A DNA stretch of 64,000 nt, taken from NCBI GenBank assembly GCA_943787485.1, contig CALSMP010000017.1, forward strand, positions 1 through 64,000, read 5' to 3'. This DNA comes from an uncultured Luminiphilus sp. (GTDB taxonomy: Bacteria > Pseudomonadota > Gammaproteobacteria > Pseudomonadales > Halieaceae). The translations under genes and the position numbers were made by a program. Positions 44,741 to 64,000 of this stretch are shown piece after piece. Position 1 is the first letter of the stretch. Each line of letters begins with the position of its first letter. The notes under the pieces are model-generated. The model did not search any database and was not told the origin of the DNA. It saw only the letters and a list, made by a program, of their open reading frames with translations.

Positions 44741-47005
44741 ATGATGCTGAGCCTAACGTGCGCACAACCAAGTAAGTGCGCGCTCTGGATATCTCTTGCC
44801 TTTGCTGCCTTATTAACCGCTTGCGATAACGTCGAAGACCGTCAAATAAACAGCGTTGACGACGTCGCAACAGCACGTATTGGTGTTACTTCGGGGTCAA
44901 CTACGGCGCAACTGGCGTATGAGCGATTCCCCAACGCCACGATCAGTGAATTCGCTGATTATGCAGACATCATCGGCGCGTTGAAGGCGAATCATATCGA
45001 CGCGACAGTTACCGTCACGGCAAATGCCAATCTGATTGTCCAAAAGAATCGGGATTTAAAAGTCATCGAGACCACATTGCGTGAAGAGCCGACCTGCGCC
45101 GCTGTGGCAAAGGGAAACACAAAGCTCTTAAATCAACTAAACGCCATCATCGACGACATCCGCGCGGATGGAACGCTGGCAGACATGAGCCGACGCTGGT
45201 TTAAAAAAGAACCCGGACCTTATGAGCACCACGACTATCGAGTGCCCGCCGAGGGTGATGTTCTGAAAGTGGGTGTTAGTGCGACGCGCGAGCCGATGTC
45301 TTTTGTCGACGCAGAGGGGCGCGTTACGGGACATGATGGCGAGCTCGCCCGTCTATTTGCAGAGCGACTCAACCGGCCAATCGAGTTTGTAAACTCGCGC
45401 TGGGACGCCCTGATCCCCGCACTCGAATCAGGGAAGGTCGACATTATTGTCACTGGCATGAGCTATACCGACGAACGCGCGAAGCGTATCGACTTTACCG
45501 ACACCTACTACACAAACCGCCTCGTGTTGCTTGTTCGCAACGGAACAGCAATAAATTCCACGTCAGGCAAGCAACTGAGTGAAACAGATCAGCTCGCTAA
45601 CGAATCCATTGCGATTTTGCAGGGCTCGGCCTTTGATGTGTTCGCGCAAGAAGTCTATCCAGATGCGGACCTGCAATTTTACAACACCATCGCTGACATG
45701 CTAGCAGCGGTAGAGAAGGGCAAGGCAACGGCGGGGTTCTCGGATTTTGATTTACTGCACCAGGCGCTAAAGGCAAATCCGCAGCTCGCTATTTTGGGCG
45801 ATCCCATATTCACCTCTCAGGTGGCAGCCGCATTCAACAAAGAAAATCAGCGGCACCGGGACTTGTTTAATGAGTTTTTAGCTTCGCTACGTGCTGATGG
45901 CACTCTCGCCGACATGGAACAGCGCTGGTTCATCGATGGAAATTTCGAGATGCCGGACTTCGAGTTCGACCCCAATGCGCCTACATTTACTATCGGCAAC
46001 GCGATTATAGGCCTCCCTCAAGTCGCGCAGATCGAGGGTGAGATCGCCGGTTTCGATGTGGAGCTAGCACTTCGCTTCGGGCAGTACACTGGACAGAACA
46101 TCCGGTTTGTCACCGTTGACTGGGCGGCGCTAATCCCTGCGCTAATTGGGGGTAAAGTCGACAGTATTGTGTCTTCCATGTTTGTAACACCTGAGCGGCG
46201 CGAGCGGGTGAACTTCTCTGATTCCTACCATACGGTTGATAGTTATGCGTTTGTCCTGAAAAAGAATCTAGCCGGCGCTGCCAGTAGCGTTGCCAATGAG
46301 CCGACGACTGGATTCTGGGAATCTAGTAAGCAAAGTTTTTATGACAACATTATTCGTGAAGACCGCTATTTACTGTTGTGGGACGGGCTCATCGTCACCA
46401 TCATTATTTCTCTACTCTCGGCGTTCTTCGGCACGCTGTTAGGCGGATTAATTTGCATGATGCGCATGTCACAAAACGGTTTTTTGCAAATGCCTGCGAG
46501 GATTTACATCGAGGTAATGCGGGGCACGCCTGTGCTGGTACTTTTGATGCTGATTTTCTACGTCCTGTTTGCGTCAATAGATATTGATCCTGTATTGGTC
46601 GCCGTGTTTGCCTTCGGGCTCCACTTTGCTGCATACATCGCCGAAATTTTCCGCGCTGGAGTGAGGAGCATTGATGATGGGCAGACCGAGGCTGGTATCG
46701 CAATGGGGTTCAGCAGAGTACAAACCTTCATTTACATCATCATGCCGCAAACGGTGCAGAGGATAATGCCGGTTTACAAAGGCGAATTTATTTCACTGGT
46801 GAAGATGACGTCGATCGTCGGATACGTGGCGGTTCAAGACCTCACAAAGGCCTCCGATATCATTCGTAGCCGCACATTTGATGCGTTTTTCCCGCTTATC
46901 ATGGTAGCCATTCTTTATTTCATTTTGGCCTGGGTACTTACCAGAGCTCTCGAATACATCGAACAGCGCACGGACCCTGAACTCCGAAGGGGTAAAAAGT
47001 CATGA
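44741..47005 (+). CDS. fused permuted substrate-binding protein and ABC amino-acid-type permease
   Basis: A 754-residue lipoprotein-permease fusion (lipobox LLTAC, Cys28). Residues ~36-155 resemble only the C-terminal half of an SBP_bac_3 protein, ending [14 protein letters not shown]; ~173-400 form a complete SBP_bac_3 domain ([12 protein letters not shown], ending with the same [13 protein letters not shown]); ~420-520 resemble only an N-terminal half ([24 protein letters not shown]). Then comes a HisM/GlnP-type permease (~540-740) with the EAA loop [20 protein letters not shown]. It would import amino acids or similar solutes with the ATPase encoded next, whose ATG overlaps its stop by 4 bases. 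ATG 44741 has GGGAG upstream. The permuted half-domains are unusual. Confidence 0.85.
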
Positions 47006-48123
47006 TTAGTGTCATGGGGTTGACCAAGGACTTTGGCTCACTGTCTGTTTTAAGGGGAGTCGATGCGGAGATTACCAAGGGTGAGGTCGTATCGATTATA
47101 GGACCCTCAGGCTGTGGTAAGAGCACCTTTTTACGCTGCATCAACCGTTTAGAAACGCCGACATCTGGGACAATTTGGGTTGATGGCGTTGATCTGATGG
47201 ATCCAACAGTCAACCTTCCCAAAGTACGCCAACACATGAATATGGTGTTCCAAGGCTTTAATTTATACGAACATTTGACGGTATTGGAGAACCTCACCCT
47301 AGCTCCCATCAAGCTTGCGGGTATGTCACAGGCGGACGCGGAAGAGCGTGCGCGCGAACTGCTTCACCAAGTGGGTCTTGCAGAACGTGAGGATCATTTT
47401 CCAAAGGAGCTTTCAGGCGGGCAAAAGCAGCGAGTTGCCATTGCTCGTTGCCTGGCGATGGACCCTGACGTGGTTTTGTTGGATGAGCCAACCTCGGCGC
47501 TTGACCCAACGATGGTGACCGAGGTGCTTGCTGTTATTCGGAATCTTGCGAAACAAGGCTTGACGATGCTAATCGTGACCCACGAGATGGATTTTGCACG
47601 CGAAGTGTCAAATCGAGTCTTTTTTATGAAGGACGGTGTCATTCATGAACAAGGCCCTCCAAGCCAAATTTTTGATGCGCCCAAGCTAGAAGAGACGCGT
47701 GCCTTTACGCAGCGCGTAAGAAGCCTCGAACTCAATCTGGATAGTCTTGCAATCGATCTATACGGCATGCAGGGCCAGGTTGTCCGTTTCTGTGAGAAAC
47801 ACCTTCTCACCAAGAACATCCAGTTCAATTTGACTGTGATCTTGGAGGAGGTTTATCAGTTATTAAAACCCGCAATAGCCGACGGTCACAAGTTTTCGGT
47901 CAGCATTCAATACTCCGAAAAGCAGCGGGCTACACAGTTTGTACTGACGATGCCCATAGGCTACGAAGGTGTAATGCAGGAGTTTGTCCATGAGCGCGAA
48001 GCTTATGAGGCAAAAGATCTTGGGACTCAATTGATAAGCGGTATGACCTCCGCCGTGGCCCTCGAAGAAGGCGCTTTGACGACACGTCTGGTCCTCGAGA
48101 TTGCAGATAGGACGGCAAGTTGA
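47002..48123 (+). CDS. ABC transporter ATPase with C-terminal GHKL-like domain
   Basis: A 373-residue protein. Residues 1-245 are a GlnQ/HisP-type ATPase: Walker A GPSGCGKS (34-41), signature LSGGQ (137-141), Walker B VVLLDEP, H-loop His194. Residues ~250-370 are extra and resemble anti-sigma-kinase-type GHKL domains: a helix [10 protein letters not shown] (EE at 282-283), central strands, and a KDLGTQLI turn (339-341) with a final strand TRLVLEI. The Asn of the usual N-box is absent, so ATP binding by this tail is doubtful. It energises the fused permease encoded just upstream. The tail may sense or dock a regulator. Confidence 0.88.
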
Positions 48124-48194
48124 ACGCCAGACGACGACTGGGAATGGTCGCTCGCTGCCGCATGCTAGGGATTATCGCCTATTAGGGCAGCCTA

Positions 48195-48645
48195 TTAATA
48201 TTGCCTAAGGATGAGAGTGTCGCCGCGCTGAGTAAACTCAATGTGCTTCAAGGAACTCATTCCTAATAAACTCTCTTTACCAAGCAATCCGGGCGCAATC
48301 GTCGCGTCAACATTACCCACGGACACTCTACCGACACTTACGCTGTTACGCCTTGTTAGCTAGGATTTGGCTGTTCCGTTTGCGGTTCGAGTGGCAATAG
48401 GTCTGCCACGCTTCAGATCCAGTGTTCTGGCGACAGGTGCTGGCATGGCAACGCCCGTGGCACCGGTATCGAGCAAGAAAGTGACGGATTTGTTGTTGAT
48501 GGTGCCTGACGTAACGTAATGCCCCAGCTTATTTCGCTGAAGTCGAACTTCCGCAATATCTGCGGATGTGCAGTGTTTCGATATACCGATTAGGCTTGTG
48601 TTGCGCCTCGAGCCGATCTCCGAAGAAAAGTACGCCCAAGGCCAT
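48195..48645 (-). pseudogene. decayed retropepsin-like protease paralogue
   Basis: Translation gives GHYVTSGTINNKSVTFLLDTGATGVAMPAPVAR, cited only as the active-site block LLDTGATGVAMP, which closely matches the intact protease near 9.3 kb, and an end LLGMSSLKHIEFTQRG before LRQY. The N-terminal anchor (MALGVLFFG) lies in another frame, so a frameshift occurs near 48580, and an in-frame TAG interrupts the sequence after TANGTAKS near 48360. Both lesions show it is inactive. Confidence 0.85.
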
Positions 48646-48879
48646 GAAACTTAGCTAGGCGAGTGCCTGCAGTACAAAACCCACGCGTCGACTTTGCTGC
48701 ACACCACCTCCCAAACTGTATTATTTTGGGTAGCTTACCAAGGAGTAACTTATGAAATAAATCTGTGCAGGTACCTTGCAGCGCTTGAGTTTGCGAATGG
48801 ACTACTCGGGGCGTTCCTCGCACTAAGAATGTTGGTCCGGTCTGGTCGGCAGATATTTGCCAAGTCAGATATGGTCTCT

Positions 48880-49150
48880 GGTTATTGAAGAGTCGACAAT
48901 TCGAAAAGCGATCCATAGGCTACCGCTATACGAACATGAAGCCTCCCTAACACGGTGGCATTTTGGGTAGTGTTTCACGGCACTGTTAAGTATTGAAGGA
49001 GGCCACTTTATGCGTACCGCATTGCCAAAATCGATGTCGACGATTCCATCGTCTAAAAGTGCTGACCCTACTTCTTTTGTGTAAGCATTTGCGATTTCAG
49101 GGACAACGGGTGTGCCCAAGCTTGTTCGGCACAGTAACTCTATTATTAGC
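48880..49150 (-). pseudogene. possible STAS-domain fragment
   Basis: In the gap between the protease pseudogene and the propeller gene (48646-49168) the minus strand encodes TVPNKLGTPVVPEIANAY followed by LLDDGIVDIDFGNAVRI, which has the shape of a STAS domain (strand, helix, strand, loop before the DSS motif). After this the frame becomes unrelated, and no start exists upstream. I regard it as a broken STAS gene with moderate-to-low confidence; nothing else is recognised in the gap. Confidence 0.4.
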
Positions 49151-49168
49151 TAACAGCGACTCTGAAGG

Positions 49169-50254
49169 TTATGGCAGAAATGTCTTGGTTACCCCCGAAG
49201 AACCGGCCGCTAGCCAGACAACATCGCCATCCACCCAAAGATCGCCTACGCGACCTGGCACATCGTTGAGCTCGCGATGCGCTTCAACGCTCAAACCCGC
49301 CTCTCCTAGACTTAGTCGCGTCAATTGGAAGTGTTTACCGGCATCACCAGCCACCAATACCTGATCGCCAAAAACAGTAATTGCAGTGAGTGGGTAACCA
49401 ACATCAATGACTTTTTCTAAAACCGCACTCTCGTTGCTCAAGGCAATGATGGCGAGACCACCGCCGTGAGCAACCAGTAGGCGATCGTTAATAAGCGCAG
49501 ATTGAATGGGAAAGTTTGCAGGGCGGTGCCCACCGCGTGTGAATCCCGCTTCTGAGAGCGCAATGTAGGAAAGGTCAGTAATCGAAGCACCACCTTCTCT
49601 GATTTCTGCCCAGATGACACCGAAATCAGGGCCACTAATGTGCGCTGAAATCACCGCATTTTCACCATCAGGCGTAAGCAATATGTCAGGTTGACCGCGT
49701 CCAAAATCGGGACGTGAGCGCGCATCAGAGATGATCCCCTGAGAATCATAGTCGAACCACGCCATGGGCTTTGTGCCGCCAGAAACGGCCATCACACCCT
49801 TCGCTGCAGACACCCCAGAAAATGGCCCAACCTCGACCGGTTGCGCCGGACCTGTTAACCCCCAGTCTTTAGCAGGGTCGAGGACAGCAACTGCGCCCGG
49901 CGCACGCGCATCAAGCACAAACACTAGATCATCGGCAACGAATACGTCATCAATCGACTGAAGTCCCTCCGGTGGGGCTAGAACCACCATCGCGCCTGTT
50001 CTACGCTGAATACGCTGAAGCCCCTGTTCGCTTGCGGCAGCGAGCACCTCGTCCTCGTAATTTGCTAGGTTTAGTACATCAGTCGGGCCTGCGTCTTTGT
50101 AGATCAGAAAACCTATACCCAGCTCTATCCAGCCTCCGGCCATGGCCCCCATTGCAAAGAGCGCTGACGAAAGGCTCACGACGAATACGGCCAAACCGGA
50201 GCGAAACCCCCTATCTCGTCTGATTTCTATTTTTGGAATGTGTGACGTGTGCAT
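49169..50254 (-). CDS. membrane-anchored beta-propeller-like protein of unknown function
   Basis: A 361-residue protein with one long hydrophobic segment (residues ~19-52, LAVFVVSLSSALFAMGAMAG and GIGFLIY) and a periplasmic domain with repeating short strands of the type VFVADDLVFVLDARAPGAVAVLD, typical of propeller folds. No catalytic motif is seen. The ATG has GAGGTAATTCG upstream. It is divergent from the propeller lipoprotein at 50.8 kb. The family is not recognised; a surface or scaffolding role is possible but unproven. Confidence 0.7.
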   Translation of the reverse strand: MHTSHIPKIEIRRDRGFRSGLAVFVVSLSSALFAMGAMAGGWIELGIGFLIYKDAGPTDVLNLANYEDEVLAAASEQGLQRIQRRTGAMVVLAPPEGLQSIDDVFVADDLVFVLDARAPGAVAVLDPAKDWGLTGPAQPVEVGPFSGVSAAKGVMAVSGGTKPMAWFDYDSQGIISDARSRPDFGRGQPDILLTPDGENAVISAHISGPDFGVIWAEIREGGASITDLSYIALSEAGFTRGGHRPANFPIQSALINDRLLVAHGGGLAIIALSNESAVLEKVIDVGYPLTAITVFGDQVLVAGDAGKHFQLTRLSLGEAGLSVEAHRELNDVPGRVGDLWVDGDVVWLAAGSSGVTKTFLP

Positions 50255-50639
50255 CGAATTACCTCGACCGCTTCTGTAATGTTGATCTACATTCGCTGCA
50301 CCAAAAAAGTTTGGGGCATCTCAGTCGCACAACTTGGAGCCTAAGACCAGCACTCGCTGCTGCACAATGATCTACTCGCAACCTAAGCCGCCTTCATGAA
50401 ACATTCAATACTCGTGGCGCGCCCGACTGTCGCCTTTTATTGCCTGTACCTTATTCCCCGCGCGTTATCGTCCGTGCGTCAGAGTAAATCCAAGGCAATT
50501 TGAAGGCCGCTGAGCGCTTAGCATGAGCTGTCGCGCGCACCCGTTCAGCATTGACTAGATAGGAATGGTATGTCAAACACCGCGAACAGGATTTTCGGGT
50601 CAATAGATGGAAACTTCGACAGGTCTGCAGGTCCGTTCA

Positions 50640-50694
50640 GCACAGTCAGCGAGTATGTCTACTCTCGATAGGTCGTTAATATGTCCTATACTTC
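50640..50694 (+). repeat. dispersed 55-bp repeat, copy 1
   Basis: Matches 52341-52395 at about 48 of 55 positions (shared core ATGTCTACTCTCGATAGG). It lies about 95 bases before the propeller lipoprotein gene, so it could be part of a shared promoter or operator. The rest of the 50255-50788 gap shows only a 33-codon ORF (MSNTANRIFGS from 50571) that ends inside the repeat. Confidence 0.75.
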
Positions 50695-50788
50695 AACGAC
50701 AGTCTATAACCCGCCAGCACGAGAAAGTATGTAACTACTCCCAAGGGACCACTACCCTACGCCAATTGAACTTTTAAGGATTGTACAG

Positions 50789-52264
50789 ATGTATTTTTCA
50801 ACGCTTTTCACACCCCTATCTTGGTCATTGGTTGCTGCTCTACTGATAGTAGGCTGCAGTTCTAGTAATTCACCGTCGGAGCCCCAAGACCCGAGCGACA
50901 ACGATGAAACTACAGAAGAGCCAGCGAGAACAAAATTTTTGTATACACAAACCAACGATGCCCGAGGTAATCAAGTGATCGGATTCTCGGTTACCGACAA
51001 TGGCGATCTCGTTGAGATGGGCGCGTATGAAACCGGCTCTGTGGGCGATGCTGACGAGGGTGACTTTGATAGCCAAAGTTCCGTGAGGGTTTACGAGGAC
51101 TTTTTATTGGTCGCAAACCCGGGCGATACCAGCGGCGAGTCGGGCATTACCGACGGTAACAGTGCAATTACCGTTTTTTCCATTAGCGACAATGGCAGTC
51201 TTCAACGCGTAGATCAGAATGCTGAGATTGACGGCCTTCAGAATGCCGATAGTCACGGCGTCCGGGCTGTCAGTGTCGACTTTTATTCCGAAGGCGACGT
51301 CACCCGGGTCGCCGTCGCTAATCAAGGCACAAATCGCGTCTGTGTCAGCCCAGAAGCCAACGGCACCCTGGGCACCTGTAGTGATCAGTTCGGTAATACC
51401 TTAGGCGACCTACTCACTGACGAGTCACCCGCCGCCGACATTCAGTTATTTTCATTGAGTGAAAGCGGTGTTCTTTCCCACGAATCCGAAATAGCTACGT
51501 TCGCAGCGAATCGCGGAGGTCCATCGCAGGTAGCATTCAGCCCTGATGGCACCCGTTTATCCGCAACGCTCCTAGGCATACCTCACCTTTCATTTCCCGC
51601 CGACCCCGCCAATCAGCAGCCGAGCCGGACCTATCTTTGGGATTTCGAGGGATCGGCCGGAACAGTCAGCAACGAACGCTTTTTCGAGCATCCAGGTATT
51701 GCTGGGAGCATTGGCTTCGGCTGGAGCCCCAATTCCGACTTCCTTTATGTTTCGAGCGCCACACTCGACGCAGGTGCGCTAGAGGCCAATGTTGTCGCTC
51801 TGGACAGTAGCGACACAGATTCCGTATTTACGAGCGATGGCAATTCGCTCTGGTCTGGCTCTGGCGCCGTGCCCACCGAGGTTCGACCGGCGGCCTGCTG
51901 GGTCTGGGTTAATGAGGCTGCCGATCGGGTATACACGGTTGGCTTTCTTACCAACACGATCTCAACCTTTGAGACTAACGGCGCTGATATGACGCATCTG
52001 CAAACTGTGTATCGTCAGGGCATTGACCTCGAGGACGCAAAAGACCTCGTTTTCTCAGCTGACGGGAAGTATGCCTACGTCATGGGTGCGTTTTTTAGCC
52101 ACACGATTTCCATATTCGATGTGAACGCTGACGGAACCCTAGCAGAGCGAACAACATCACCTTTGGCGATCAGTGCATCGCGGATAAACGGCGCGCCACT
52201 AGACCCCAGTCAAGTCGCTTATCAAGGGCTTGATGCTTATCCCTCAGTTTATGTTGGCTACTAA
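50789..52264 (+). CDS. lactonase-like beta-propeller lipoprotein
   Basis: A 491-residue lipoprotein (lipobox IVGC near residue 23) with an acidic Ser/Asp linker and then a seven-bladed propeller-like domain. Strand patterns such as VIGFSVTDNGDLVEMGAYETG, FSPDGTRLSATLLG and FSADGKYAYVMGAF resemble YbhE/6-phosphogluconolactonase-like propellers, though catalytic residues are not conserved enough to claim lactonase activity. AAGGA sits 9 bases before the ATG. A 55-bp repeat precedes it and another precedes the next gene, so both may share control. Confidence 0.8.
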   Translation: MYFSTLFTPLSWSLVAALLIVGCSSSNSPSEPQDPSDNDETTEEPARTKFLYTQTNDARGNQVIGFSVTDNGDLVEMGAYETGSVGDADEGDFDSQSSVRVYEDFLLVANPGDTSGESGITDGNSAITVFSISDNGSLQRVDQNAEIDGLQNADSHGVRAVSVDFYSEGDVTRVAVANQGTNRVCVSPEANGTLGTCSDQFGNTLGDLLTDESPAADIQLFSLSESGVLSHESEIATFAANRGGPSQVAFSPDGTRLSATLLGIPHLSFPADPANQQPSRTYLWDFEGSAGTVSNERFFEHPGIAGSIGFGWSPNSDFLYVSSATLDAGALEANVVALDSSDTDSVFTSDGNSLWSGSGAVPTEVRPAACWVWVNEAADRVYTVGFLTNTISTFETNGADMTHLQTVYRQGIDLEDAKDLVFSADGKYAYVMGAFFSHTISIFDVNADGTLAERTTSPLAISASRINGAPLDPSQVAYQGLDAYPSVYVGY

Positions 52265-52340
52265 GCAAACGCATGACATGAGCAGAGCGGGCCTTATGAG
52301 GGTACTCAGAATCAATTCATCCCACTAACGTTGAATCGCA

Positions 52341-52395
52341 GCACAATCAGCGAGGATGTCTACTCTCGATAGGCCGTTTATCTGTCCTATGCTCC
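52341..52395 (+). repeat. dispersed 55-bp repeat, copy 2
   Basis: Second copy of the 50640-50694 element, 69 bases upstream of the small exported-protein gene. The similarity continues on both sides of the TAG that ends the short reading frame in each copy, so selection or origin is at DNA level. Confidence 0.75.
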
Positions 52396-52463
52396 CATCA
52401 GGAGAAATGAAATAACAAGAGTGACCGGGTAAGGGAACACGCTCAACCGAAAGATAAGTTACC

Positions 52464-52718
52464 ATGATAAAACCGCACCGTCCCCAACTGCTTTTGTCAA
52501 TCCTTATCGGCATGGGCTGCTGCGCGCCCGGTTTTGCGGACCCTAGGCCCGCCAGCGTGCGCGCCGGGCTGGGCGTCGCCACGTCGCAGAGTACCGCCTT
52601 TTCCGACACGGACTGTGAGGCAATCTTGCCGGTGTTAGTTGAACTGCAGCCAGCTAAATGTAACGGTGTCACTACCTCTTTGGGCTTCGAAAATAACAAC
52701 GAATCTCTATGGCTCTAA
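52464..52718 (+). CDS. small putative exported protein
   Basis: An 84-residue frame with an N-terminal basic, hydrophobic stretch (PQLLLSILIGMGCCAPGFA) that looks like a signal peptide, followed by a Cys-containing mature part (CEAILPVLVELQPAKC). No family is recognised. It ends 10 bases inside the next gene and could couple its translation, since the DUF2062 gene lacks a ribosome site. An alternative is that this is just leader sequence. Confidence 0.45.
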   Translation: MIKPHRPQLLLSILIGMGCCAPGFADPRPASVRAGLGVATSQSTAFSDTDCEAILPVLVELQPAKCNGVTTSLGFENNNESLWL

Positions 52719-53194
52719 AATTGCTTGAAGAAAAGGTATTAAAACCGATTCGGGGCTTGCTCTCGCAAGGCGTCACGCCAAAAAAAATGTCTCAAGCGGC
52801 AGCCGCAGGGTTTGTGCTTGGTATGACCCCAATGCTTGGTGTCTCGACTCCTCTTGCGGTGGTGGTGGCGGGGGTATTCAAGCTCAATCAGGTCGCCATT
52901 CAGGTGGCAAACTATGCGGCTTATCCCGCTCAGATTGTCATGTTCGTACCTTTTATCCGTCTCGGTGAATGGGTATTTGGTCTAGAACCCGCAGCGATCA
53001 ATCCGTCTGATATTACAATGATGTTCAGCAATGATTTTCAGGCTTCGGTGCAGCATTATGGCCAGTCGCTTCTTGCTGGATGGTTCTCCTGGTTAATAGC
53101 GGCAGTACCGTTAGCACTGGTTATCAGCTGGCCCGCAGAGAAGTTGCTCACAAAATATTTTGCTCAATCGGAGGTCCTGGACGAGGAGCCTTGA
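52709..53194 (+). CDS. DUF2062 membrane protein
   Basis: A 161-residue inner-membrane protein with 3-4 hydrophobic segments and the DUF2062 hallmarks AAGFVLGMTPMLGVSTPLA and ANYAAYPAQIVMFVPFIRLGE. Members are often near glycosyltransferases or lipid enzymes, but their function is unknown. No Shine-Dalgarno site precedes the ATG, which overlaps the end of the small upstream frame, suggesting coupling. Confidence 0.82.
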   Translation: MALKLLEEKVLKPIRGLLSQGVTPKKMSQAAAAGFVLGMTPMLGVSTPLAVVVAGVFKLNQVAIQVANYAAYPAQIVMFVPFIRLGEWVFGLEPAAINPSDITMMFSNDFQASVQHYGQSLLAGWFSWLIAAVPLALVISWPAEKLLTKYFAQSEVLDEEP

Positions 53195-54895: not shown

Positions 54896-55015
54896 GTTAC
54901 ATGGACTCTAATGTGTAAGCCAATGGTATGTGTTCTACCCACATTCATGTTGACGGGCGGCTTTCTAAAGCGATAACGAGAAACGTAAAAAAAATTAAAA
55001 GGGCAGCAAAAATTC

Positions 55016-55888
55016 TTGAAAGAAGCAGTCGAAAAAAAACAACCGACCAAATTATCAGATGAGACATTAACGGCAGTGGTTTACGGTGGCGATCATTCGC
55101 CTTGGGTTCAGGCGGTGTTGATGGGCTTGAGCGAAAAAGGCTTCCCGTGGTCCTTGAGATCAACACCACCGATCGCAACGTTTTACAAATGGGGCGTATT
55201 GATGCCGACGCTGTCGCTCAACGGCGGGCCGTGGCAGAAGGAGTCGACGGCCATGCTGATCGCCCTCGGGTTTGACGCGTTGTCGGATGAGGACAACGCC
55301 GCTATCCAAGGAGCATGGCAGGGTGTGGTCTACCGGCCTCAGAACCCCGTTCGATTTTTACATTCGTTTGCTGAAGCGGGTGATGTTTCTTCATCTGCTC
55401 TGACGAGAAGCCTCAGAAATATGGCGCGCGGTTTTATCGCGTTTTACATGATTACTTTAATCACGATTGTTCGGACCTTAAAAAAAGTTACTGATCCAGA
55501 AGACTGGGGTCAGCAGTTTCTCCATTGGGATGAAGCGTTGGCGTGCTCGGACGGCCCGTTTATCGACGGCGCGGCACCCGGTAGTCGCGACCTTCTGTTA
55601 TTCGGGATTGTGCAGTGCCACAGCAGTATTCCCGTACCTCCCCTAGAAGCACTAAGGAGCGATCAGCGCCTCGGCCACCTTCGCGCGTGGATAGGGCGCA
55701 TGCAAACACGGTTTGCCACCTCCGGACATTTATACTCTGGGCAATACTTTAAACCATTCATCGACCCGCATGCGGCAGCGAGCCGTCTACAACAAGGTCT
55801 TTTCTACCTTGGGTTCACATGCGTTTTGCTTTGCTTGCCCATCACTTTGCCACTCGTACTTTTTTACGTCTTAAGGACGCCAAGGTGA
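55016..55888 (+). CDS. glutathione S-transferase-like protein with C-terminal membrane segment
   Basis: A 290-residue protein. The N-terminal part (AVVYGGDHSPWVQAVLMGLSEKGFPW) has the strand-turn-helix of a GST/glutaredoxin thioredoxin fold, and PTLSLNGGPWQKESTAMLIAL corresponds to the cis-Pro and Ser/Glu glutathione-binding region. A helical domain follows, and the C-terminus ends in a hydrophobic helix (TCVLLCLPITLPLVLFYV), suggesting membrane attachment. I use TTG 55016 because no early ATG exists. The reaction is unknown. Confidence 0.65.
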   Translation: MKEAVEKKQPTKLSDETLTAVVYGGDHSPWVQAVLMGLSEKGFPWSLRSTPPIATFYKWGVLMPTLSLNGGPWQKESTAMLIALGFDALSDEDNAAIQGAWQGVVYRPQNPVRFLHSFAEAGDVSSSALTRSLRNMARGFIAFYMITLITIVRTLKKVTDPEDWGQQFLHWDEALACSDGPFIDGAAPGSRDLLLFGIVQCHSSIPVPPLEALRSDQRLGHLRAWIGRMQTRFATSGHLYSGQYFKPFIDPHAAASRLQQGLFYLGFTCVLLCLPITLPLVLFYVLRTPR

Positions 55889-55923
55889 GTAGTGCAATAA
55901 GCCCCCTTCTCGCCAAAGGCTCA

Positions 55924-56028
55924 GGGATGAACTATTGACCGGAGAATTGTTCTACACGCTCCGGGATGCCCAAGTACTGATGGGCCTGTGGCGGGTGGTT
56001 TACAATACAAAGCGACCGCACAGCTGAC
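55924..56028 (+). pseudogene. IS3-family transposase fragment
   Basis: The plus strand reads RDELLTGELFYTLRDAQVL then WRVVYNTKRPHS and a stop, a piece of the OrfB C-terminus. It differs from the IS3 remnant at 44 kb and lies on the other strand. The surrounding gap (55889-56280) contains nothing else recognisable. Confidence 0.75.
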
Positions 56029-56280
56029 TGGACTACAGATCGCACAAATCCGAAACAACGATCCCTGATCAAGAAATACCTATGCATATATATGCTGCGT
56101 GAACTAACCTTCACACTGGACTAGTTACTGCAAGCAGGTCAGCGGAAGCGGTGTGCAATGACAAGGTCAAACAAACAGCGACTGGAGATTTTCTGCTGAA
56201 CTCTATGTGAATTTGCAAGGCTGATAGGATTGCTCGGGTCTTGTCAGGGAGAATTAAACTAGCTTTTGCTGAGATAGATT

Positions 56281-57447
56281 ATGATTAATGTTGTGTCTTG
56301 GGCGGCCAGCTATGGAAACCTTGATCATCGAAATCTTGTTGAGGCAGGTTTTACTGATAAGGATGTAACTGCTTGCGCTGACCTTGATGGTCCAGAGTTG
56401 TTGCAGGTTTTCGATCCATCGGATGAACGCAAAGTGCCCTTCGCTGCGACCAGAGCAGCAGCTGTATTGGACGCGGCCTGGACGAAGGCAGGCTTACGCT
56501 CGGCACGCAACCGTCTCGATGGAAGAGGAGACCGTATTAGGTATCCCGATACCGCACTGGTTGTAGGTAGCTCTCTTGCGCTTGCGGATGAGGCCTGCGA
56601 AGCCACCGAAAACCCCGATAAGCGAATGGGCCCTTATGCTCTGTCAAAGCTGCGCGGCAACGCGCTGACCGCACCGCTTGCGATTCGTTTTGGCTTAGGT
56701 GGCGGTAGTCATTGTGTGAGCGCTGCAAGCGCCACGGGTGGTGCTGCGATGGTGCATGCCGCCAGTTTGATTCGCGCTAAGCAAGCTGACCGAGTTGCCG
56801 TAGTTTGCCTTGATGAAATGCGTCATAACGTCATTACGAGTGGGCTTGGCTCTACCGGCGCGAGCAGTCTCTCAAAAAAGTCTCAACCGCTCTCTGTCGA
56901 TCGCAATGGCATGCGTCCTATTACTGCGGCGGTAGCTATGATTTTGGAGACCGATGAATCTTGCCAAGCGCGAGGCCAGGGCAGTATGGCGCAATGGGTT
57001 GGGGGCTGCGTGCGTCATGAATGCCATCATCTCATGGTCCCCATTCCTTCGGGCGATGCGCTGATTGAGGCAAGCCTTAGCTCACTTGAGCAAGCTGGCT
57101 TGACCACTGGCACCATTGACTGGGTATCGCTTCATGCAACGGGAACACGCGTTTGGGACGATCTGGAAGTGCGGTGTGCAAAGCGTTTATTCGGTTCTCG
57201 CTTGCCTCACCTAAGCGCGTTCAAGCGAAGCTTTGGACATACCATGGGAGCTGCAGGCTTATTGGAAGCTGGCTTACTCTGCGAGGGCCTGGCTAGTCGG
57301 CGTTTACCACCTTGGCCTTGCCCGACAGACCCCGCGCTTGAATTGACCAAGCCGTTGAAGATTCGAAGCTATGCAACCAATGCCATGATGTGGTCTGCCG
57401 GGATGGGGGGCGACGTTGCAGCCAACATATTTTCTGCGTCGGCGTGA
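56281..57447 (+). CDS. beta-ketoacyl-ACP synthase (KAS II-like)
   Basis: A 388-residue condensing enzyme that would join an acyl thioester to a malonyl-type extender. The active site is complete: Cys145 in HCVSAASATGG, His284 in SLHATGTRVWD, Lys314 and His319 in KRSFGHTMGAAG. The N-terminal part is divergent from housekeeping FabF. It overlaps by 4 bases the gene for an adenylation-ACP-thioesterase protein, so the pair probably acts together on an ACP-bound substrate. No dedicated acyltransferase or ketoreductase is nearby; the product is unknown. Confidence 0.85.
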   Translation: MINVVSWAASYGNLDHRNLVEAGFTDKDVTACADLDGPELLQVFDPSDERKVPFAATRAAAVLDAAWTKAGLRSARNRLDGRGDRIRYPDTALVVGSSLALADEACEATENPDKRMGPYALSKLRGNALTAPLAIRFGLGGGSHCVSAASATGGAAMVHAASLIRAKQADRVAVVCLDEMRHNVITSGLGSTGASSLSKKSQPLSVDRNGMRPITAAVAMILETDESCQARGQGSMAQWVGGCVRHECHHLMVPIPSGDALIEASLSSLEQAGLTTGTIDWVSLHATGTRVWDDLEVRCAKRLFGSRLPHLSAFKRSFGHTMGAAGLLEAGLLCEGLASRRLPPWPCPTDPALELTKPLKIRSYATNAMMWSAGMGGDVAANIFSASA

Positions 57448-59567
57448 CAAGGCCGGTGATTGATCCAACCCCCCCAAAAACTTGGTATGATCCCACAACG
57501 GGTCAGCTATGTTTCCGTGCCGCTTGGGAACAAGCTGTAGCTAGTTGTGGGGATGATGTTGCTTGGTGGCGCCTTGGTAAACCAATTAGTTATCGCACGC
57601 TTCATGACTTAGCTTTAGCCTGTGAAACACCGTCATCACCCGTATGGATTGATGGCTATGAAATAGATTGGTTGGTCCAGGCTCTTGCGAGTTGGTTGCG
57701 AGATAAGGCCGTGGTTTTTTATGATAGGACTTGCTTGAGACCCAACCTATCTGCAACCGAGATTGACGCACTACCGCCTGGCACTCATGCGATCTACTTT
57801 ACATCGGGTACCACTGGTACCCCTAAAGCCATTGTACGCAGTACTGCTTTTGCTTTGCGGGAGGCTTGGGCGTACGCGCAGGACCTTGCGGTACCACAAG
57901 GCTCTAGAGCTCTCGCATTGGTATATCCGTGGTTCGGCGCCTTAACGAAACATAATTTAGGCATGTTGTTGTCTGGCACGGCTCAAGTTTTTGCTCAGGC
58001 AACCGACGCTGTAGATGTCAAGGCGAACGTACTTTATTGCACACCTTCGCAGGCGCTCGCTCTCAGGGGCGATCCCACCTGGGACTTGATTAGCCTTACA
58101 GGCGAACCAATTTCAGATCATCACCGACAGCATCTCTGTGCTATGTTAACGCCCGATGGTCGCGTGCTTGATGCGTTTGGAAGCACAGAGTGCGGGGTGA
58201 TCGCCAGGCGCTGGCTCGATCGAGCTGCTCTGGCTGAAACGCTGGACAGTTTCGCAGGCGAGGTATTACCGGGAAAATCGGTAACGGTGGACAAGCAAAA
58301 GCGCTTATCCGTTACGTTATTCGACAATCGGCGCGTTTTTACTGGTGATCTAGCCGCCCTCCGAAATGGCAAGCTGGAGCTACTAGGGCGGTCAACGGCG
58401 TTACGTAAAGTCCATGGCGTTTGGCATGACAGCACGCCGGTCCTAAGAGCGTTGCGCAATCACCCTGACATTACGCATGTGGAACTGGCGCCAGAAGGTA
58501 CCGACCAGCAGCAATTAATTGTCCGCGTTGCATGCCCTGAAACTTTGGCTTTAGCCAACCTGGAGTCTTGGCTACTGGAGAACATATCCGATCTCTGCCT
58601 GTTTCCTGTCATTGAGTGTTTCCATTCTGAACCGACCCTGGGGCCAACCGGAAAGCGGCAGTTTTGTGGAACGCCATCCCGTGTTTCTAAAGCTCGCAGC
58701 AAGGCCGTTTTAGTCGCTGACATCGTACTCGAGCACCTGCCACTCCCCGATGACTCGCCGATAAAAAAAACGAGTTTTGATTCGCTGGGCGTGGACTCTC
58801 TCGACCTCACCGAAGTGGCTCTAGAGCTTGAGGCTCGCACGGGTGCCAAGGTGGCTGAGTCATTGCTGCCATCAGACACACCTTGGTCAATAGCGCAGCG
58901 CTTGAGCAACGACCTAGTATTGCCATTTGAGTTACGTGAGCTTGCTAGTGATAACGGTGTGCCAGAGGTTATTTGTGTTGGTCGTAGCTTGGTGTTTACT
59001 CTCCCTACCCTCAGCCCAACGAATAGTTTCAAATTCAGTCCGTGCCTGCGCGCACAAAATGACCGTTTTACGATTGCTTCATTGGCGAAAAATTTGCTTG
59101 ACCACAATCCTCGGCTTCTTGAGAGCGCTGTTTCTAAATACATTATAGGTTTTTCATTAGATGCGGTGTTGGCCATCGAGCTCGCTTTCGTGTTGGAATC
59201 ACAGGGGCTAACCGTGGGTGCGGTATTTTTACTCGACCCACCAACACGAAAACGCAGATCTTGGTTGCGCATACGCACCCCAATTTTGGGTGAATGGTTA
59301 ATCCGGCCGTGGTTCAGATCTCGACCGTCTTTTGCGCGAGAATTGCGTCGTCGTGCGATCGCGCTACAGCCAACTCGTCGGATCAATGCGCCAGTCACTG
59401 TGTTACATCGAGGTGAGGCTGACTGCTGTTGGCTCGACCAACAAACGCCTACGACTTACATCAAACTGACAGACGGATCACACAAGGCACTGATTGAAGA
59501 CTCGGCGGTTCGCGCTGGCTGGTCGGTGTACTTTGAGCAGTGGGCTGCAGCGCATGGGCTTTGTTAG
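57444..59567 (+). CDS. adenylation-ACP-thioesterase multidomain protein
   Basis: A 707-residue three-domain enzyme. The adenylation domain (~20-410) has the A3-like motif TSGTTGTPK (121-128), AFGSTECG (~244-251), FTGDL and a C-terminal Lys in GPTGKRQ. An acyl carrier domain follows with the phosphopantetheine Ser in FDSLGVDSLDL (Ser452). The C-terminal part (~510-700) looks like an alpha/beta hydrolase/type I thioesterase with nucleophile Ser571 in IGFSLDAVLAIELAF. The start is a GTG overlapping the ketosynthase stop. The protein would activate a carboxylic acid, load it on its own ACP and release a product after ketosynthase action. Substrate unknown. Confidence 0.85.
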   Translation: MTRPVIDPTPPKTWYDPTTGQLCFRAAWEQAVASCGDDVAWWRLGKPISYRTLHDLALACETPSSPVWIDGYEIDWLVQALASWLRDKAVVFYDRTCLRPNLSATEIDALPPGTHAIYFTSGTTGTPKAIVRSTAFALREAWAYAQDLAVPQGSRALALVYPWFGALTKHNLGMLLSGTAQVFAQATDAVDVKANVLYCTPSQALALRGDPTWDLISLTGEPISDHHRQHLCAMLTPDGRVLDAFGSTECGVIARRWLDRAALAETLDSFAGEVLPGKSVTVDKQKRLSVTLFDNRRVFTGDLAALRNGKLELLGRSTALRKVHGVWHDSTPVLRALRNHPDITHVELAPEGTDQQQLIVRVACPETLALANLESWLLENISDLCLFPVIECFHSEPTLGPTGKRQFCGTPSRVSKARSKAVLVADIVLEHLPLPDDSPIKKTSFDSLGVDSLDLTEVALELEARTGAKVAESLLPSDTPWSIAQRLSNDLVLPFELRELASDNGVPEVICVGRSLVFTLPTLSPTNSFKFSPCLRAQNDRFTIASLAKNLLDHNPRLLESAVSKYIIGFSLDAVLAIELAFVLESQGLTVGAVFLLDPPTRKRRSWLRIRTPILGEWLIRPWFRSRPSFARELRRRAIALQPTRRINAPVTVLHRGEADCCWLDQQTPTTYIKLTDGSHKALIEDSAVRAGWSVYFEQWAAAHGLC

Positions 59568-59803
59568 TTATGCTTTATCGCCGCAACCGTTTTCTCAGCA
59601 GATAGTTTGGCTTTTCTGGGCATCATCATTTTCCTCTTGGGGTAAACGATGAGCTAAAACCCTCTCTTAGACAAATGACTGAATTAGTCCAACAGGGGCT
59701 GACGGGATACAACTTAACCTGATGAGCGAAGCCGTCTCTTAAATCAGATCGCATAAATTCCAACTTCATCCGACGACGTACAAGTGAGAAAGACCCTTAT
59801 GAC

Positions 59804-60064
59804 ATGATTTCAGTAAGGCTGTGGACTGATGGTATCCGAGTTATTAGTTGTCGTTTCAAGCCCCTTGCGTCGACCCAATCCGTTATCGAATCGTTGAAAG
59901 CGGGTGAGGGTGCGGTGACTATCCCGGAATTTATCATTAACTGGCTTGAATGCATTACCGGCGATATGGCGGGGGTGGTAAAGATTCTTGAGGAGCAGGT
60001 TGATAGTGTCGTAGAGTTAAGCGATACGATGGATGTGGCAGCGGTGCGCCAAAAACAAATATGA
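59804..60064 (+). pseudogene. fragment of a CorA/ZntB-like metal transporter
   Basis: The 86-codon frame resembles the cytoplasmic N-terminal part of CorA/ZntB proteins: RLWTDGIRVISCRFKPLAS, an E-x-LKAGEGAVTIPEFI region and a helix VVKILEEQVDSVVEL. The transmembrane helices and the GMN motif are missing after a stop at 60064, and there is no proper start region. It is probably a relic. Confidence 0.6.
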
Positions 60065-60194
60065 CTGAGGCGAGTTAAATGCGCAGGCTCCAGCTAAAGC
60101 CCTTGTGTTTTCATCCACAGTTCAGCACCATTACCCCGCTGGAGACATAAAAGTTAAAACCTAGGACAATATCATCGCTAATAATGAGGAAAAC

Positions 60195-61016
60195 ATGAAA
60201 ACAACAGCTTTAATGACAGGGGTCGCCGCGCTGTCGATGGCGAGTGCAGTATTTGGCGCAATGCTCCCTGACGCAGTACAGGGACAAGCGTCCGCGGGTC
60301 TGATTCAAATTGCAACAACAGGAAATCCTGAGGGCTTGCATGCAGAGCTCGGTGGTGAGGTTACTGAATCATCAGTGATTGCAGAGACTGTTGGTCAAGC
60401 CACGCTTAACGGCCTTCTCAACGTTGACGAGAACGAGCACCTCGCGCCCATGGCTCTGGTAGTTAACGGAACGATATACGCGATGGTTGCACCAACCATT
60501 ACCAAAGATAACTTTATCCTCGTCACTGACGATGGCGTGACTCGTCGTATGGACGTGGGCAACTCTGAAGGCACAAACGAGCCTTTTATTGTTGCTGAAG
60601 TCGATCCAAACGCACTGCCTGAGACAGTGACTAGCAAAGCCTCTGCAGGACTGATCCAAATTGCAACGACGGGCAACCCAGAGGGTTTACAGGCTGAACT
60701 GGGCGGCGAAATTGTAGAGTCCTCCATTGTGGCTGAGACAGCGGGCCAGGATGCTCTTAACGCACTGCTAATGGTCGACCAAGACGAACATCTCGCACCC
60801 ATGGCGCTCGTCGCGCCGTCTGGCGAAATTTATGCCATGGTTGCACCGACGATTACCAAGGATAATTTCGTTCTAGTTACTCGAGGTGGAGACGCTATCC
60901 GTATGGACGTCGGCTCAACCGAGGGTACTAACCAGCCCTTCCAAGTTACCAACGTCGTATCAGACGGTGGCACACCTTGGTACGTTGAGTTCTGGTACTG
61001 GTTAACGGGTGCCTAA
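60195..61016 (+). CDS. secreted protein of two near-identical 117-residue units
   Basis: A 273-residue exported protein with a signal peptide (MKTTALMTGVAALSMASAVFG). Two copies of one domain follow, at residues 32-133 and 149-252, each starting ASAGLIQIATTGNPEGL and containing EHLAPMALV, IYAMVAPTITKDNF and MDVG-x-x-EGTN. The period is 117 residues. It ends with an aromatic tail TPWYVEFWYWLTGA that could anchor or bind. No family is recognised. AGGAAAAC precedes the ATG, and a strong terminator follows, so it is monocistronic. Confidence 0.85.
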   Translation: MKTTALMTGVAALSMASAVFGAMLPDAVQGQASAGLIQIATTGNPEGLHAELGGEVTESSVIAETVGQATLNGLLNVDENEHLAPMALVVNGTIYAMVAPTITKDNFILVTDDGVTRRMDVGNSEGTNEPFIVAEVDPNALPETVTSKASAGLIQIATTGNPEGLQAELGGEIVESSIVAETAGQDALNALLMVDQDEHLAPMALVAPSGEIYAMVAPTITKDNFVLVTRGGDAIRMDVGSTEGTNQPFQVTNVVSDGGTPWYVEFWYWLTGA

Positions 61017-61040
61017 GCGTCAGTAGGTCTGTGAAATAAG

Positions 61041-61072
61041 AGCGCTGCCCCGCGGGTCGGCGCTTTTTTTTG
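61041..61072 (+). terminator. intrinsic terminator after the repeat protein gene
   Basis: A GC-rich hairpin (AGCGC outer stem, 61041-61064) is followed by a run of eight or more T, 25 bases after the stop of the duplicated-domain gene. Confidence 0.9.
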
Positions 61073-61098
61073 TCTTGGCACTTCCCATGGAGATCACA

Positions 61099-62649
61099 AT
61101 GAATAAAACGTTAAATGGGGTCATTCCAGCCTTCTTGTTGGCTGCTTGCGCAACCACTGCGGTTCAGTCAGAAAGCACGCAGTTTCAGCCAATTGAGATC
61201 GACTTTAAGGTGGTTTGGGATCAGGACGTCCACCCGTTTACTGGCGCAACGGCTATCGACATCGACGGCGATGGTCGTGATGAGGTATTCATTGGGGGCG
61301 GACTCAATCAAGCCGATCGTCTCTATCAGTGGCGCAATGGGGCACTCGCCAATATTGAGCCCGGCACAGGCATTTCATCAATGGATGCCACTCACGGCGC
61401 CATGTCGCTCGATATGGACAGCGACGGGGATGTGGACCTTATTTTAGCAAGAGCAGGCGGTATTTATCTCTACCTAAATAATGGCGAAGGCGTATTTTCT
61501 GAGAAATTGATCAGGGTGCCATCACAGCCAGATGAGTCCGAGCCCTTTCAGGTTGCGGTCACCGATTACGACCGCGACGGTGACGTTGATCTATATGTTA
61601 GCTACTTCGTCGCTTTTCCCTTCTTCATGAGTGCAACCTTCAATGATCCGAAGCATTCTAAGACAAATATTTTGCTGCGAAACGATGGTGATCTTCGGTT
61701 TACCGATGTTACAGCAGAAGCAGGCGTCGCCGGGCATGCAAACACCTTTGGCGCAATATTGCTCGACCTTAATGGGGATTTTTATGACGATCTGGTGGTT
61801 GCGCAAAACACCTGGGAAGTCGAGATCTTCGAAAATATGAAAGACGGCACCTTCGAATCCAGACCCACCAATACCGGTTACGGCTTTTGGATGGGGGTAG
61901 GCGCAGGTGATATCGATAACGATGGTGACCAGGACCTGTTTTTTCCAAATGTCGGTAATTCAATACCATCATGGCTAACCATGGGCGATATTTTTCCAGA
62001 TCAGCGACACTCGCATGACTGGTCACTGCTAAGAAACGATGGCAATTTCAGATTTACCGAAACGGTTTCAGACTGGGAGATCGACAACGAAGGGTTTGCT
62101 TGGGGAGGCGTCTTCGAAGACGTCAACCTTGACGGAAAACTGGATCTCTTTGTTGCTCAAAACTACGTGAAATGGCCAATTCATCGTTTATTCAAACTTG
62201 AGGGTCGTGCCTATTTGCAAGACACCAAAGCGTCCGGCGCCCCCTTTTTCCGGCACGCCCCAGAGCTCGGTTTAAAAAATAAACGCTACGGGCAATCCTC
62301 GTTGTTTGTCGACCTAGACGGTGACTATCGACTCGACTACTTCTGGGTGAATATGAACGATGAACAGGCTGCATTCTTAAACAAGAGCGAAGGTAATTTC
62401 GTTTCTTTCAGGTTGCCTGACGATATCGCTCATCTGGGTACGCAAATCTATATCGTGACACAGAATGGTAAGAGCTATACCCGGCAATTCATTGCGGGCG
62501 AAGGTTATCTGACCGATCAATCGAGTGATCTAGTTTTCGGCTTGGATGGCGCCGAGGCTGTCGAGAAGGCAGTGGTGACGTGGCCTGATGGCACGAGCCT
62601 AGAAATCGCCAACCCAGCCATCAACACACGTCATTCACTCAGTCGTTAG
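61099..62649 (+). CDS. FG-GAP/VCBS-repeat lipoprotein with UnbV/ASPIC-like C-terminus
   Basis: A 516-residue lipoprotein (lipobox LAAC near residue 18) with repeated calcium-binding loops of the form DxDGDGxDE (IDIDGDGRDEV, DMDSDGDVDL, DYDRDGDVDLY, DIDNDGDQDLF, DVNLDGKLDLF, DLDGDYRLDY), giving an integrin-like propeller. The C-terminus (SDLVFGLDGAEAVEKAVVTWPDGTSLEI) matches the ASPIC/UnbV domain that often closes such proteins. ATG 61099 has GGAG 6 bases upstream. Probably a surface or extracellular binding protein; ligand unknown. Confidence 0.85.
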   Translation: MNKTLNGVIPAFLLAACATTAVQSESTQFQPIEIDFKVVWDQDVHPFTGATAIDIDGDGRDEVFIGGGLNQADRLYQWRNGALANIEPGTGISSMDATHGAMSLDMDSDGDVDLILARAGGIYLYLNNGEGVFSEKLIRVPSQPDESEPFQVAVTDYDRDGDVDLYVSYFVAFPFFMSATFNDPKHSKTNILLRNDGDLRFTDVTAEAGVAGHANTFGAILLDLNGDFYDDLVVAQNTWEVEIFENMKDGTFESRPTNTGYGFWMGVGAGDIDNDGDQDLFFPNVGNSIPSWLTMGDIFPDQRHSHDWSLLRNDGNFRFTETVSDWEIDNEGFAWGGVFEDVNLDGKLDLFVAQNYVKWPIHRLFKLEGRAYLQDTKASGAPFFRHAPELGLKNKRYGQSSLFVDLDGDYRLDYFWVNMNDEQAAFLNKSEGNFVSFRLPDDIAHLGTQIYIVTQNGKSYTRQFIAGEGYLTDQSSDLVFGLDGAEAVEKAVVTWPDGTSLEIANPAINTRHSLSR

Positions 62650-62714
62650 CCTTCTGCCAGTCTTAGTCGAGGGGAGCCGCATTTGCGCTGGACTTGGACG
62701 TCTTACATTCAAAC

Positions 62715-64000
62715 TTAACTCAAGCCCGCACTGCGTATGACTCTTTGGTTGAGTCGCAAGATCAGGAATTCGCCATTGCTGAATTGCTGATGCTTCAAGT
62801 CATCTGTCATGTATTTCAAGACCTTCAAACCCAGATCGGCGGGGTTCTCGGAGGCATCAATGCTTCGCAGTTGGGTTTCAATATTGGACTTTGTTTCGCC
62901 ACAGCGAATTTCCACCTCAGCGTATTCAGCAGCAGCGCGGATCCGAAGTTCAAGCTCAGAGACGCCCTCGGGTGTATTCGTCATCATGTAGACAAAGGCT
63001 TCCTCAACGGCGAGTACAAGGCGATTTAAACTTTCACCTCGCCAGTCCGACTCCCGGGCTTTCTCAGTGACAAAGGCCAGTGCGCCGGCAAGTCCGGCTT
63101 TGTCCAATGGCTGCACATTTCTCGCTTGGCGTTTGTTCTTGAGCGAGACCAACCAGCTGAGAAACACCGCGGCAACGCCGCCGGCCGTCATTCCATTGTT
63201 AAGCAGGCTCGCTAAATAATCGGGCAACAAACCGCTAAACAGCTGCTGATTTTGGAACCCTATACCTAACCACAATGCCAGACCAAAAACGATGCCGTTA
63301 TCAAAAGACATGCCTTCTGACATCACAAGACGAATACCGTGCGAAAATAAAAGCACTAGAAATACAATGATGAAAGCACCGGCAACAGGCGTTGGAATAG
63401 CTTGTAATAAGGCTGAGAGCTTGGGTACAAAGGCCAGTCCCAGCAGAATAATGCCGCCGTAGAGTCCCACTTTGCGAGACGCTACGCCCGTTAAATCGAC
63501 AACCGATATCGACGTGGAGTAAGTAGTATTTGGAAGAGTTCCGGCGAGGCCGCTTAAGAAATTACCAAGGCCGTCGGCGTTCACCGCACCTTGAACGACA
63601 CGATAATCGGTGGTTTTCACTTTTTTACTGGAAATATCCTGAATGGCGATGCCATCTCCGAATGTCTCGAGAGCGCCGATAATAGTCACAATGATAAATG
63701 AGGGGAGCAGGGTCCAAAAAGCCGCGTCGAAGTCAGTATTAAGTCCTGGCCAACCTTGATCGGGCAGGCCGACCCATGAGGCTTCCGACACCGCTGTTAA
63801 ATCCGTCAAATTGAGTGGCCAAGCCACCAAAAATCCAATGATGATTCCGATCAGAGGTGCCCAAAGTCGTTTTTTCCCCGCTGTATAAAAACTTAACAGC
63901 AAAATAACCACCAGCGTAATAGTGGCGACTACAGCGGGTGCGGAAGCAAAGGTGTTGAACCCCTCAGGTACGGTCGACACCATGTCAAACCCAATGGGCA
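62715..64000 (-). CDS. NCS2-family nucleobase permease with C-terminal GHKL-like domain, N-terminus outside window
   Basis: The open frame continues past the right edge (PIGFD precedes the first internal Met), so the start is missing. About 290 residues of membrane helices carry NCS2 features: VVQGAVNADGLGNFLSGLAG, TLPNTTYSTSISVVDLTGVASRKVG, given as parts of the family blocks, and IPTPVAGAFIIVFL. After a basic linker (KNKRQARNV) a ~115-residue soluble domain follows with LVLAVEEAFVYMM, strands, and NPADLGLKVLKYM ending in EFLILRL. This resembles anti-sigma-kinase-type GHKL domains but lacks the N-box Asn. A similar tail is on the ABC ATPase at 47-48 kb. Substrate probably xanthine, uracil or similar. 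Confidence 0.85.
   Translation of the reverse strand, partial: PIGFDMVSTVPEGFNTFASAPAVVATITLVVILLLSFYTAGKKRLWAPLIGIIIGFLVAWPLNLTDLTAVSEASWVGLPDQGWPGLNTDFDAAFWTLLPSFIIVTIIGALETFGDGIAIQDISSKKVKTTDYRVVQGAVNADGLGNFLSGLAGTLPNTTYSTSISVVDLTGVASRKVGLYGGIILLGLAFVPKLSALLQAIPTPVAGAFIIVFLVLLFSHGIRLVMSEGMSFDNGIVFGLALWLGIGFQNQQLFSGLLPDYLASLLNNGMTAGGVAAVFLSWLVSLKNKRQARNVQPLDKAGLAGALAFVTEKARESDWRGESLNRLVLAVEEAFVYMMTNTPEGVSELELRIRAAAEYAEVEIRCGETKSNIETQLRSIDASENPADLGLKVLKYMTDDLKHQQFSNGEFLILRLNQRVIRSAGLS

Follow-up and report, generated by a model that had tools for sequence, protein, structure and literature searches.

Why do two unrelated transporters of one bacterium end in the same kind of domain, and what could this domain do there? 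The question is raised by a 64,000-nucleotide stretch of DNA from an uncultured Luminiphilus sp. (contig CALSMP010000017.1 of assembly GCA_943787485.1), below called the window. An ABC ATPase and an NCS2 permease encoded in it both carry a C-terminal tail, which an earlier note, made from the letters of the window, had described as a degenerate GHKL domain of the SpoIIAB/RsbW type, which might couple transport to partner switching, for instance through a STAS protein. Our analysis gives good support to the SpoIIAB/RsbW fold of both tails and finds the residues of the ATP site lost. Judging from sequence, we consider it rather probable that the tails are pseudo-anti-sigma docking domains at which a phospho-regulated STAS protein would set transport. 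Coordinates are window positions unless a contig of the same genome (C17, C10 or C8 of genome G000) or an L-numbered locus is named. The main features are as follows.

47002..48123, plus strand: GlnQ-like ABC ATPase with a C-terminal tail, 373 aa (ABC_tran, 133.1 bits)
47698..48120, plus strand: degenerate SpoIIAB/RsbW-like tail of the ABC ATPase (the 141-aa stretch used for the alignment and the model)
62715..63983, minus strand: NCS2 (SLC23) permease, window part, 422 of 581 aa (Xan_ur_permease, 139.8 bits)
62718..63113, minus strand: degenerate SpoIIAB/RsbW-like tail of the NCS2 permease, 132 aa (HATPase_c_2, E=1.2e-4, residues 294-404)

The motifs quoted in the earlier note are present in both proteins (KDLGTQLI and TRLVLEI in the ATPase; LAVEEAFVYMM, ADLGLKVL and EFLILRL in the permease). 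As a correction to the note, the permease gene is encoded on the minus strand and is cut by the window edge, so that only the C-terminal 422 residues fall inside the window. The gene runs on to C17:64460, the full open reading frame (ORF) having 581 aa. The full-length protein of locus L018, from another genome of the same species, matches Xan_ur_permease with 166.1 bits, above the curated score. The best match of the ATPase among the models listed is to the GlnQ model NF007027, with 296.3 bits over residues 1-239, below the equivalog cut-off of 379. By sequence it is a close relative of GlnQ rather than a GlnQ equivalog. The tail spans from after residue 239 to residue 373.

Do the tails belong to the SpoIIAB/RsbW family? 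The earlier note had proposed a comparison with HATPase_c_2, structure prediction of both tails and a survey of genomes. The NCS2 tail of the window matches HATPase_c_2 of Pfam with 22.5 bits (E=1.2e-4), under the gathering cut-off of 27.4 bits. The ABC tail of the window, taken alone, has no match in Pfam, but its family does, as 38 of 61 members match HATPase_c_2 at E<=1, the best at 2.4e-8. Profile-profile comparison joins the ABC tails to 13 RsbW proteins encoded in their neighbourhoods (Prob 98.6, E=1.2e-15), the NCS2 tails to the same proteins (Prob 96.2, E=2.4e-9), and the ABC tails to the NCS2 tails (Prob 90.2, E=1.5e-6). A hidden Markov model (HMM) of 61 ABC tails picks up proteins of the RsbW type at the loci (in L062, the RsbW part at E=1.3e-8) and reaches the window NCS2 tail at E=0.062 only. 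An HMM of seven NCS2 tails detects the L031 RsbW (2.3e-8) and recovers the left-out NCS2 tails of L066 (2.3e-23) and L046 (9.3e-13). On these sequence scores the tails of the window stand some way apart, and the connection between them runs through RsbW. Whether both tails go back to a single fusion event was examined with a quick tree, in which the 61 ABC tails stay together (support 0.66), and the nine NCS2 tails form no clean group, with one RsbW among them.

Structure prediction gives a SpoIIAB/RsbW-type fold for each tail. The AlphaFold2 model of the ABC tail was built from 61 rows, leaving out L026 (masked stretch), L046 (shortened) and L018 (same as the window), and has pLDDT 87.9 and pTM 0.83; all 16 of its Foldseek matches in the PDB at E<=0.001 are SpoIIAB, RsbW, UsfX or SiaB. 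An alignment of NCS2 tails only gave a poor fit. The NCS2-tail model was built from 12 rows, four NCS2 tails and eight RsbW proteins, and leans to RsbW for that reason; it has pLDDT 86.0, and 12 of its 14 PDB matches at E<=0.001 are UsfX, RsbW or SpoIIAB, the other two being the histidine kinase DesK. TM-scores are moderate, about 0.5-0.7, as is expected at 10-17% identity. Chance similarity of the tails to RsbW and SpoIIAB is ruled out by the Pfam matches of the family, the Foldseek matches and the profile-profile scores. Thus profiles, predicted models and alignment agree on a relationship of both tails to the SpoIIAB/RsbW branch of the GHKL domains and on a common fold, as first proposed.

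In the GHKL fold, the N-box asparagine and the G1 aspartate hold ATP and Mg. These positions were counted in a joint alignment of 61 ABC tails, nine NCS2 tails and the 13 neighbour RsbW proteins. The N-box Asn, already reported missing from the window tails, is found in 0/61 ABC and 0/9 NCS2 tails, as against 13/13 RsbW proteins. The G1 Asp is kept in 4/61 and 0/9, as against 13/13. Between the G1 and G2 glycines, where the ATP lid lies, the median length is 15 residues in the ABC tails and 25 in RsbW; the NCS2 tails keep the length (median 25), not the glycines. Since the Asn, the Asp and the lid or its glycines are lost, the tails look like pseudo-enzymes with a ruined ATP site. One alternative is that they are active GHKL ATPases or kinases. 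The N-box Glu, retained in 59/61 ABC and 8/9 NCS2 tails, would suit such a role. Against it stand an Asn missing from all 61 and all nine tails, a G1 Asp missing from 57/61 and 9/9, and the altered G1-G2 stretch, and we reject this reading as barely conceivable.

What partner could such a domain meet? The genes immediately upstream of the NCS2 gene, just outside the window and in the same orientation, encode an RsbW-like protein (C17 ~64476-64890) and a STAS protein (64932-65261; 55.3 bits, cut-off 22.6). The STAS sequences have an SSAGLR-type loop with a conserved serine, which we take to be the equivalent of the SpoIIAA phosphosite. The same strand continues with genes for GPP34, DM13, a response regulator with GGDEF and a hybrid kinase. 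About 6 kb further, a SpoIIE/PP2C phosphatase (174.4 bits) is encoded on the opposite strand at C17:70698-71564. The RsbW-like gene of this cassette is the only one in the genome. Four matches to SigB/F/G-type sigma factors were seen in the genome, which is 89.7% complete, none of them above the TIGR02980 cut-off. The partners had thus been guessed correctly before any DNA outside the window was seen. A second pair of STAS and SpoIIE genes in this genome lies away from the two transporters (C8 23467-24374). In two lineages GPP34 (GOLPH3-like) is encoded immediately next to STAS and RsbW (L008 5281-5946; L035 11340-12002).

Assembly UBA4475 of the same species (contig DGOD01000314.1) is 99.5-99.8% identical to the window over the aligned blocks. 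By blastn, positions 128-3845 of its locus L018 correspond to window 44523-48240 (99.6%), and positions 3840-5122 to window 62717-64000 (99.5%). There the two tailed transporter genes are direct neighbours that converge, with about 120 bp between them; an intact RsbW gene (HATPase_c_2, 67.3 bits), the same STAS gene and GPP34 follow. The DNA between them in the window is absent at this place in UBA4475:

48241..62716, no strand: ~14.5 kb lacking at this place in UBA4475 (blastn against L018)

This DNA has ACTCA on both sides and contains a transposase-like ORF (54536-54976, read by eye).

Is this arrangement peculiar to Luminiphilus? A scan of one genome per species yielded 63 loci with the ABC ATPase and tail, UBA4475 included. 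They are mostly contigs of metagenome-assembled genomes (MAGs), some of whose labels may be mis-binned; 38 are at least 12 kb long. By record title they come from at least eight phyla, among them Pseudomonadota, Bacteroidota with Ignavibacteria, Bacillota, Acidobacteriota, Verrucomicrobiota, Cloacimonadota, Neomarinimicrobiota and KSB1. Near the window organism the tail is rare (4/390 genomes of its order, its own counted). No ABC tail was found on the plasmids searched, and among the 5000 plasmid matches listed for the whole ABC+tail protein none covers 80% of it.

STAS, RsbW or SpoIIE genes occur near 19 of the 63 loci, STAS in each of the 19, and in one of 36 regions around tail-less GlnQ-like ABC genes of the same genomes, the same phmmer queries and threshold having been applied to both sets. 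The Fisher p values, 5e-4 for this comparison and 1e-4 for regions of at least 12 kb (13/38 against 0/32), are nominal and optimistic, because the 63 loci contain near-duplicates (e.g. L025/L028, L037/L039, L076/L078/L080). The controls come from 17 of 24 genomes, ten of them from Ca. Formimonas alone. They were hand-picked among matches with open frames of at most 304 aa; a few matches were passed over, as was at least one that lay less than 8 kb from a tail gene. Some controls belong to other ABC families, as GlnQ-likeness was set only at E<=1e-50. The 24 genomes were partly chosen for STAS at their loci, which should, if anything, raise the control count.

The partner-switch genes stand in a same-strand gene string with the tailed gene at ten of the 63 loci. 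Thiohalocapsa marina DSM 19078 (L036) and a Bacteroidetes MAG, for instance, have the string SpoIIE-RsbW-STAS-permease-ABC. At L032 (Rhodocyclus purpureus DSM 168) and L079 the partner-switch genes are 2-6 kb off on the other strand, and at L061 the STAS domain is part of a 799-aa frame. A stand-alone protein encoded between two STAS genes of L033 (1544-2194) is weakly matched by the ABC-tail HMM (E=0.0018); going by this match, it is possibly a free pseudo-RsbW.

Intact NCS2 permeases with the tail were found in eight species: the window species, G009, G708, Azospirillum thermophilum, Pseudoroseomonas cervicalis, Ca. Thiodictyon syntrophicum, Ca. Formimonas warabiya (L066) and a Burkholderiales MAG (L046). 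Near the window organism the NCS2 tail is rare too, being present in 3/58 relatives and 2/398 genomes of the phylum, the window genome being counted in each, and none was found on the viral contigs searched. On plasmid pTs417 of Thiodictyon, a stretch of no more than 11 kb accommodates two NCS2+tail genes together with STAS, SpoIIE and an RsbW frame. Three lineages, namely UBA4475, Ca. Formimonas and the Burkholderiales MAG, have tailed transporters of both classes in a single neighbourhood that also includes STAS and RsbW or SpoIIE. A candidate third fusion in the window genome (C10 20270-20529) was rejected, as the first half of the NCS2-type tail is missing there and the second half is in shifted frames; it adjoins an ORF read by eye as a binding-protein/TRIC-like fusion. 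Another broken remnant of this kind is seen in L013 (G018:C18). Such remnants suggest that the tail module was gained and lost repeatedly.

Several observations weigh against docking to a STAS protein. No partner-switch gene is present in the DNA examined at 44 of the 63 ABC+tail loci. Further regions with tail-bearing paralogs lack these genes in seven of nine cases, and the other two are L032 and L033 again. The genes occur in the examined DNA of four of the eight NCS2+tail species; two of six is the fairer count, because L066 and L046 were found through their ABC+tail gene. The NCS2 tails of these two loci are below HATPase_c_2 detection in Pfam, and a sequence search with the ABC-tail profile found no PDB chains. 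The near-duplicates named above are a further such point. Finally, the RsbW-like gene beside the window, intact in UBA4475, is frame-broken in its own assembly, which may be a real loss or an assembly error.

The loci without partner-switch genes would fit a tail that is merely a structural or dimerisation domain with no STAS partner. MetN, ModC and MalK are ABC ATPases with C-terminal regulatory domains of their own, and RsbW-type proteins are dimers. On the other hand, such a tail does not account for the enrichment of STAS, RsbW and SpoIIE genes near tailed genes, nor for a second, unrelated transporter class that is fused to the same fold and lies near the same genes. We consider it decidedly unlikely.

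What, then, would the signal path be? We propose that a SpoIIAB/RsbW fold that has lost its ATP site, joined to the ATPase of an ABC importer and to an NCS2 permease at their cytoplasmic ends, serves as a dock for a free-standing STAS protein. The phosphate would be taken off STAS by a SpoIIE/PP2C phosphatase, which in many cases is itself a sensor in the membrane. Unphosphorylated STAS would then bind the tails and set transport activity, on or off. A working RsbW-type kinase would reset STAS by phosphorylating its conserved serine. The signal would thus pass from sensor phosphatase to STAS, to the pseudo-RsbW tail and to transport, and the end target of the partner switch would be a transporter, not a sigma factor. 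That one phosphorylatable STAS protein, read by the pseudo-anti-sigma tails, sets the ABC importer and the SLC23 permease at once has in our estimate an even chance.

The main alternative is that signalling runs in reverse. The transporter would be the sensor, and its tail would take up or release STAS according to the transport state, thereby setting the amount of STAS that reaches RsbW and a further, putative output. The same tails and the same gene linkage would be expected. The response regulator with GGDEF and the hybrid kinase in the cassette of the window organism would fit as well, and a receptor role would suit the permease partner of the ABC ATPase, whose end meets the ATPase start:

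44705..47005, plus strand: ABC permease partner (Pfam: SBP_bac_3, 229.8 bits in three stretches; BPD_transp_1, 78.2 bits)

It has, in an unusual combination, a half binding domain, a full SBP_bac_3 domain, another half domain and the BPD_transp_1 transmembrane domain, in this order. Of the 35 permease ORFs longer than 600 aa (window and L018-L079), 33 show such an order: a C-terminal half, then between one and three full SBP_bac_3 domains, an N-terminal half and the membrane domain. By sequence, the order resembles tandem binding domains that have undergone circular permutation. On the other hand, seven of ten SpoIIE proteins scanned already have an extracellular-type sensor of their own, Cache/PDC with HAMP (one has a receiver domain, and two have no detected sensor), which suggests that the input enters there; and the absence of a SigB/F/G-type sigma factor above the cut-off in the window genome also speaks against the reverse direction. 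We regard it as unlikely and prefer the path from phosphatase to transport.

A STAS domain also stands at the end of a 554-aa frame elsewhere in the window (32688-32936), which is probably a SulP transporter.

Similar partner switches are known. SpoIIAB/SpoIIAA and RsbW/RsbV (PDB 1tid, 1th8, 6m36, 6m37) resemble the present systems in the fold of the tails and in the STAS, kinase and PP2C genes alongside. However, the tails described here have no ATP-site residues and are fused to transporters, and in the window genome there is no SigB/F/G-type target above the cut-off. In SiaABCD of Pseudomonas aeruginosa, the PP2C phosphatase SiaA, the kinase SiaB and the antagonist SiaC act on an enzyme, a diguanylate cyclase, rather than on a sigma factor (PMC7647112). 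This is likewise a partner switch with a non-sigma target, and PDB entry 6kko is among the matches of the ABC-tail model; the available text of that paper describes neither a transporter nor a pseudo-kinase tail. The STAS protein MlaB binds the ABC ATPase MlaF and is required for its stability, phospho-control being left open by the authors in the part of the paper available (PMC7367683). MlaB, however, binds the ABC domain itself; in the present systems the candidate dock is a SpoIIAB-like domain apart from the ABC domain, and genes for a kinase and a phosphatase lie close by. Importers of the GlnPQ type, in the available account (PMC8025302), have tandem binding domains fused to the permease and a GlnQ-like ATPase, as here, but the present ATPases have the additional SpoIIAB-like tail and the binding domains stand in half-full-half order. 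SLC26/SulP transporters carry a C-terminal STAS tail (PMC8256260) and are related to SLC23/NCS2 by their membrane fold (PMC6497670), as stated in the portions of these papers available. Thus a C-terminal partner-switch domain occurs in both families, the SpoIIAA-like half in SLC26 and the SpoIIAB-like half in the NCS2 permeases considered here.

No description of a SpoIIAB-like tail on a transporter, or of such a link, was found in the full-text literature searched, which leaves out most subscription journals and all bioRxiv preprints; the earlier remark that the fusion is not a standard description of either family agrees with this. The domains are known. To our knowledge, the arrangement, partner switching aimed at transporters, has not been described. 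Post-translational control of ABC transporters is called not well understood in the available text of PMC7367683. Culturable bacteria are among those in which one gene string holds transporter, SpoIIAB-like dock, STAS, kinase and phosphatase, so that a control of transport by STAS phosphorylation is open to direct testing. If the proposed path is true, these systems are a mirror image of SLC26, where the transporter bears the STAS half, and the partner switch would govern nutrient uptake directly rather than genes.

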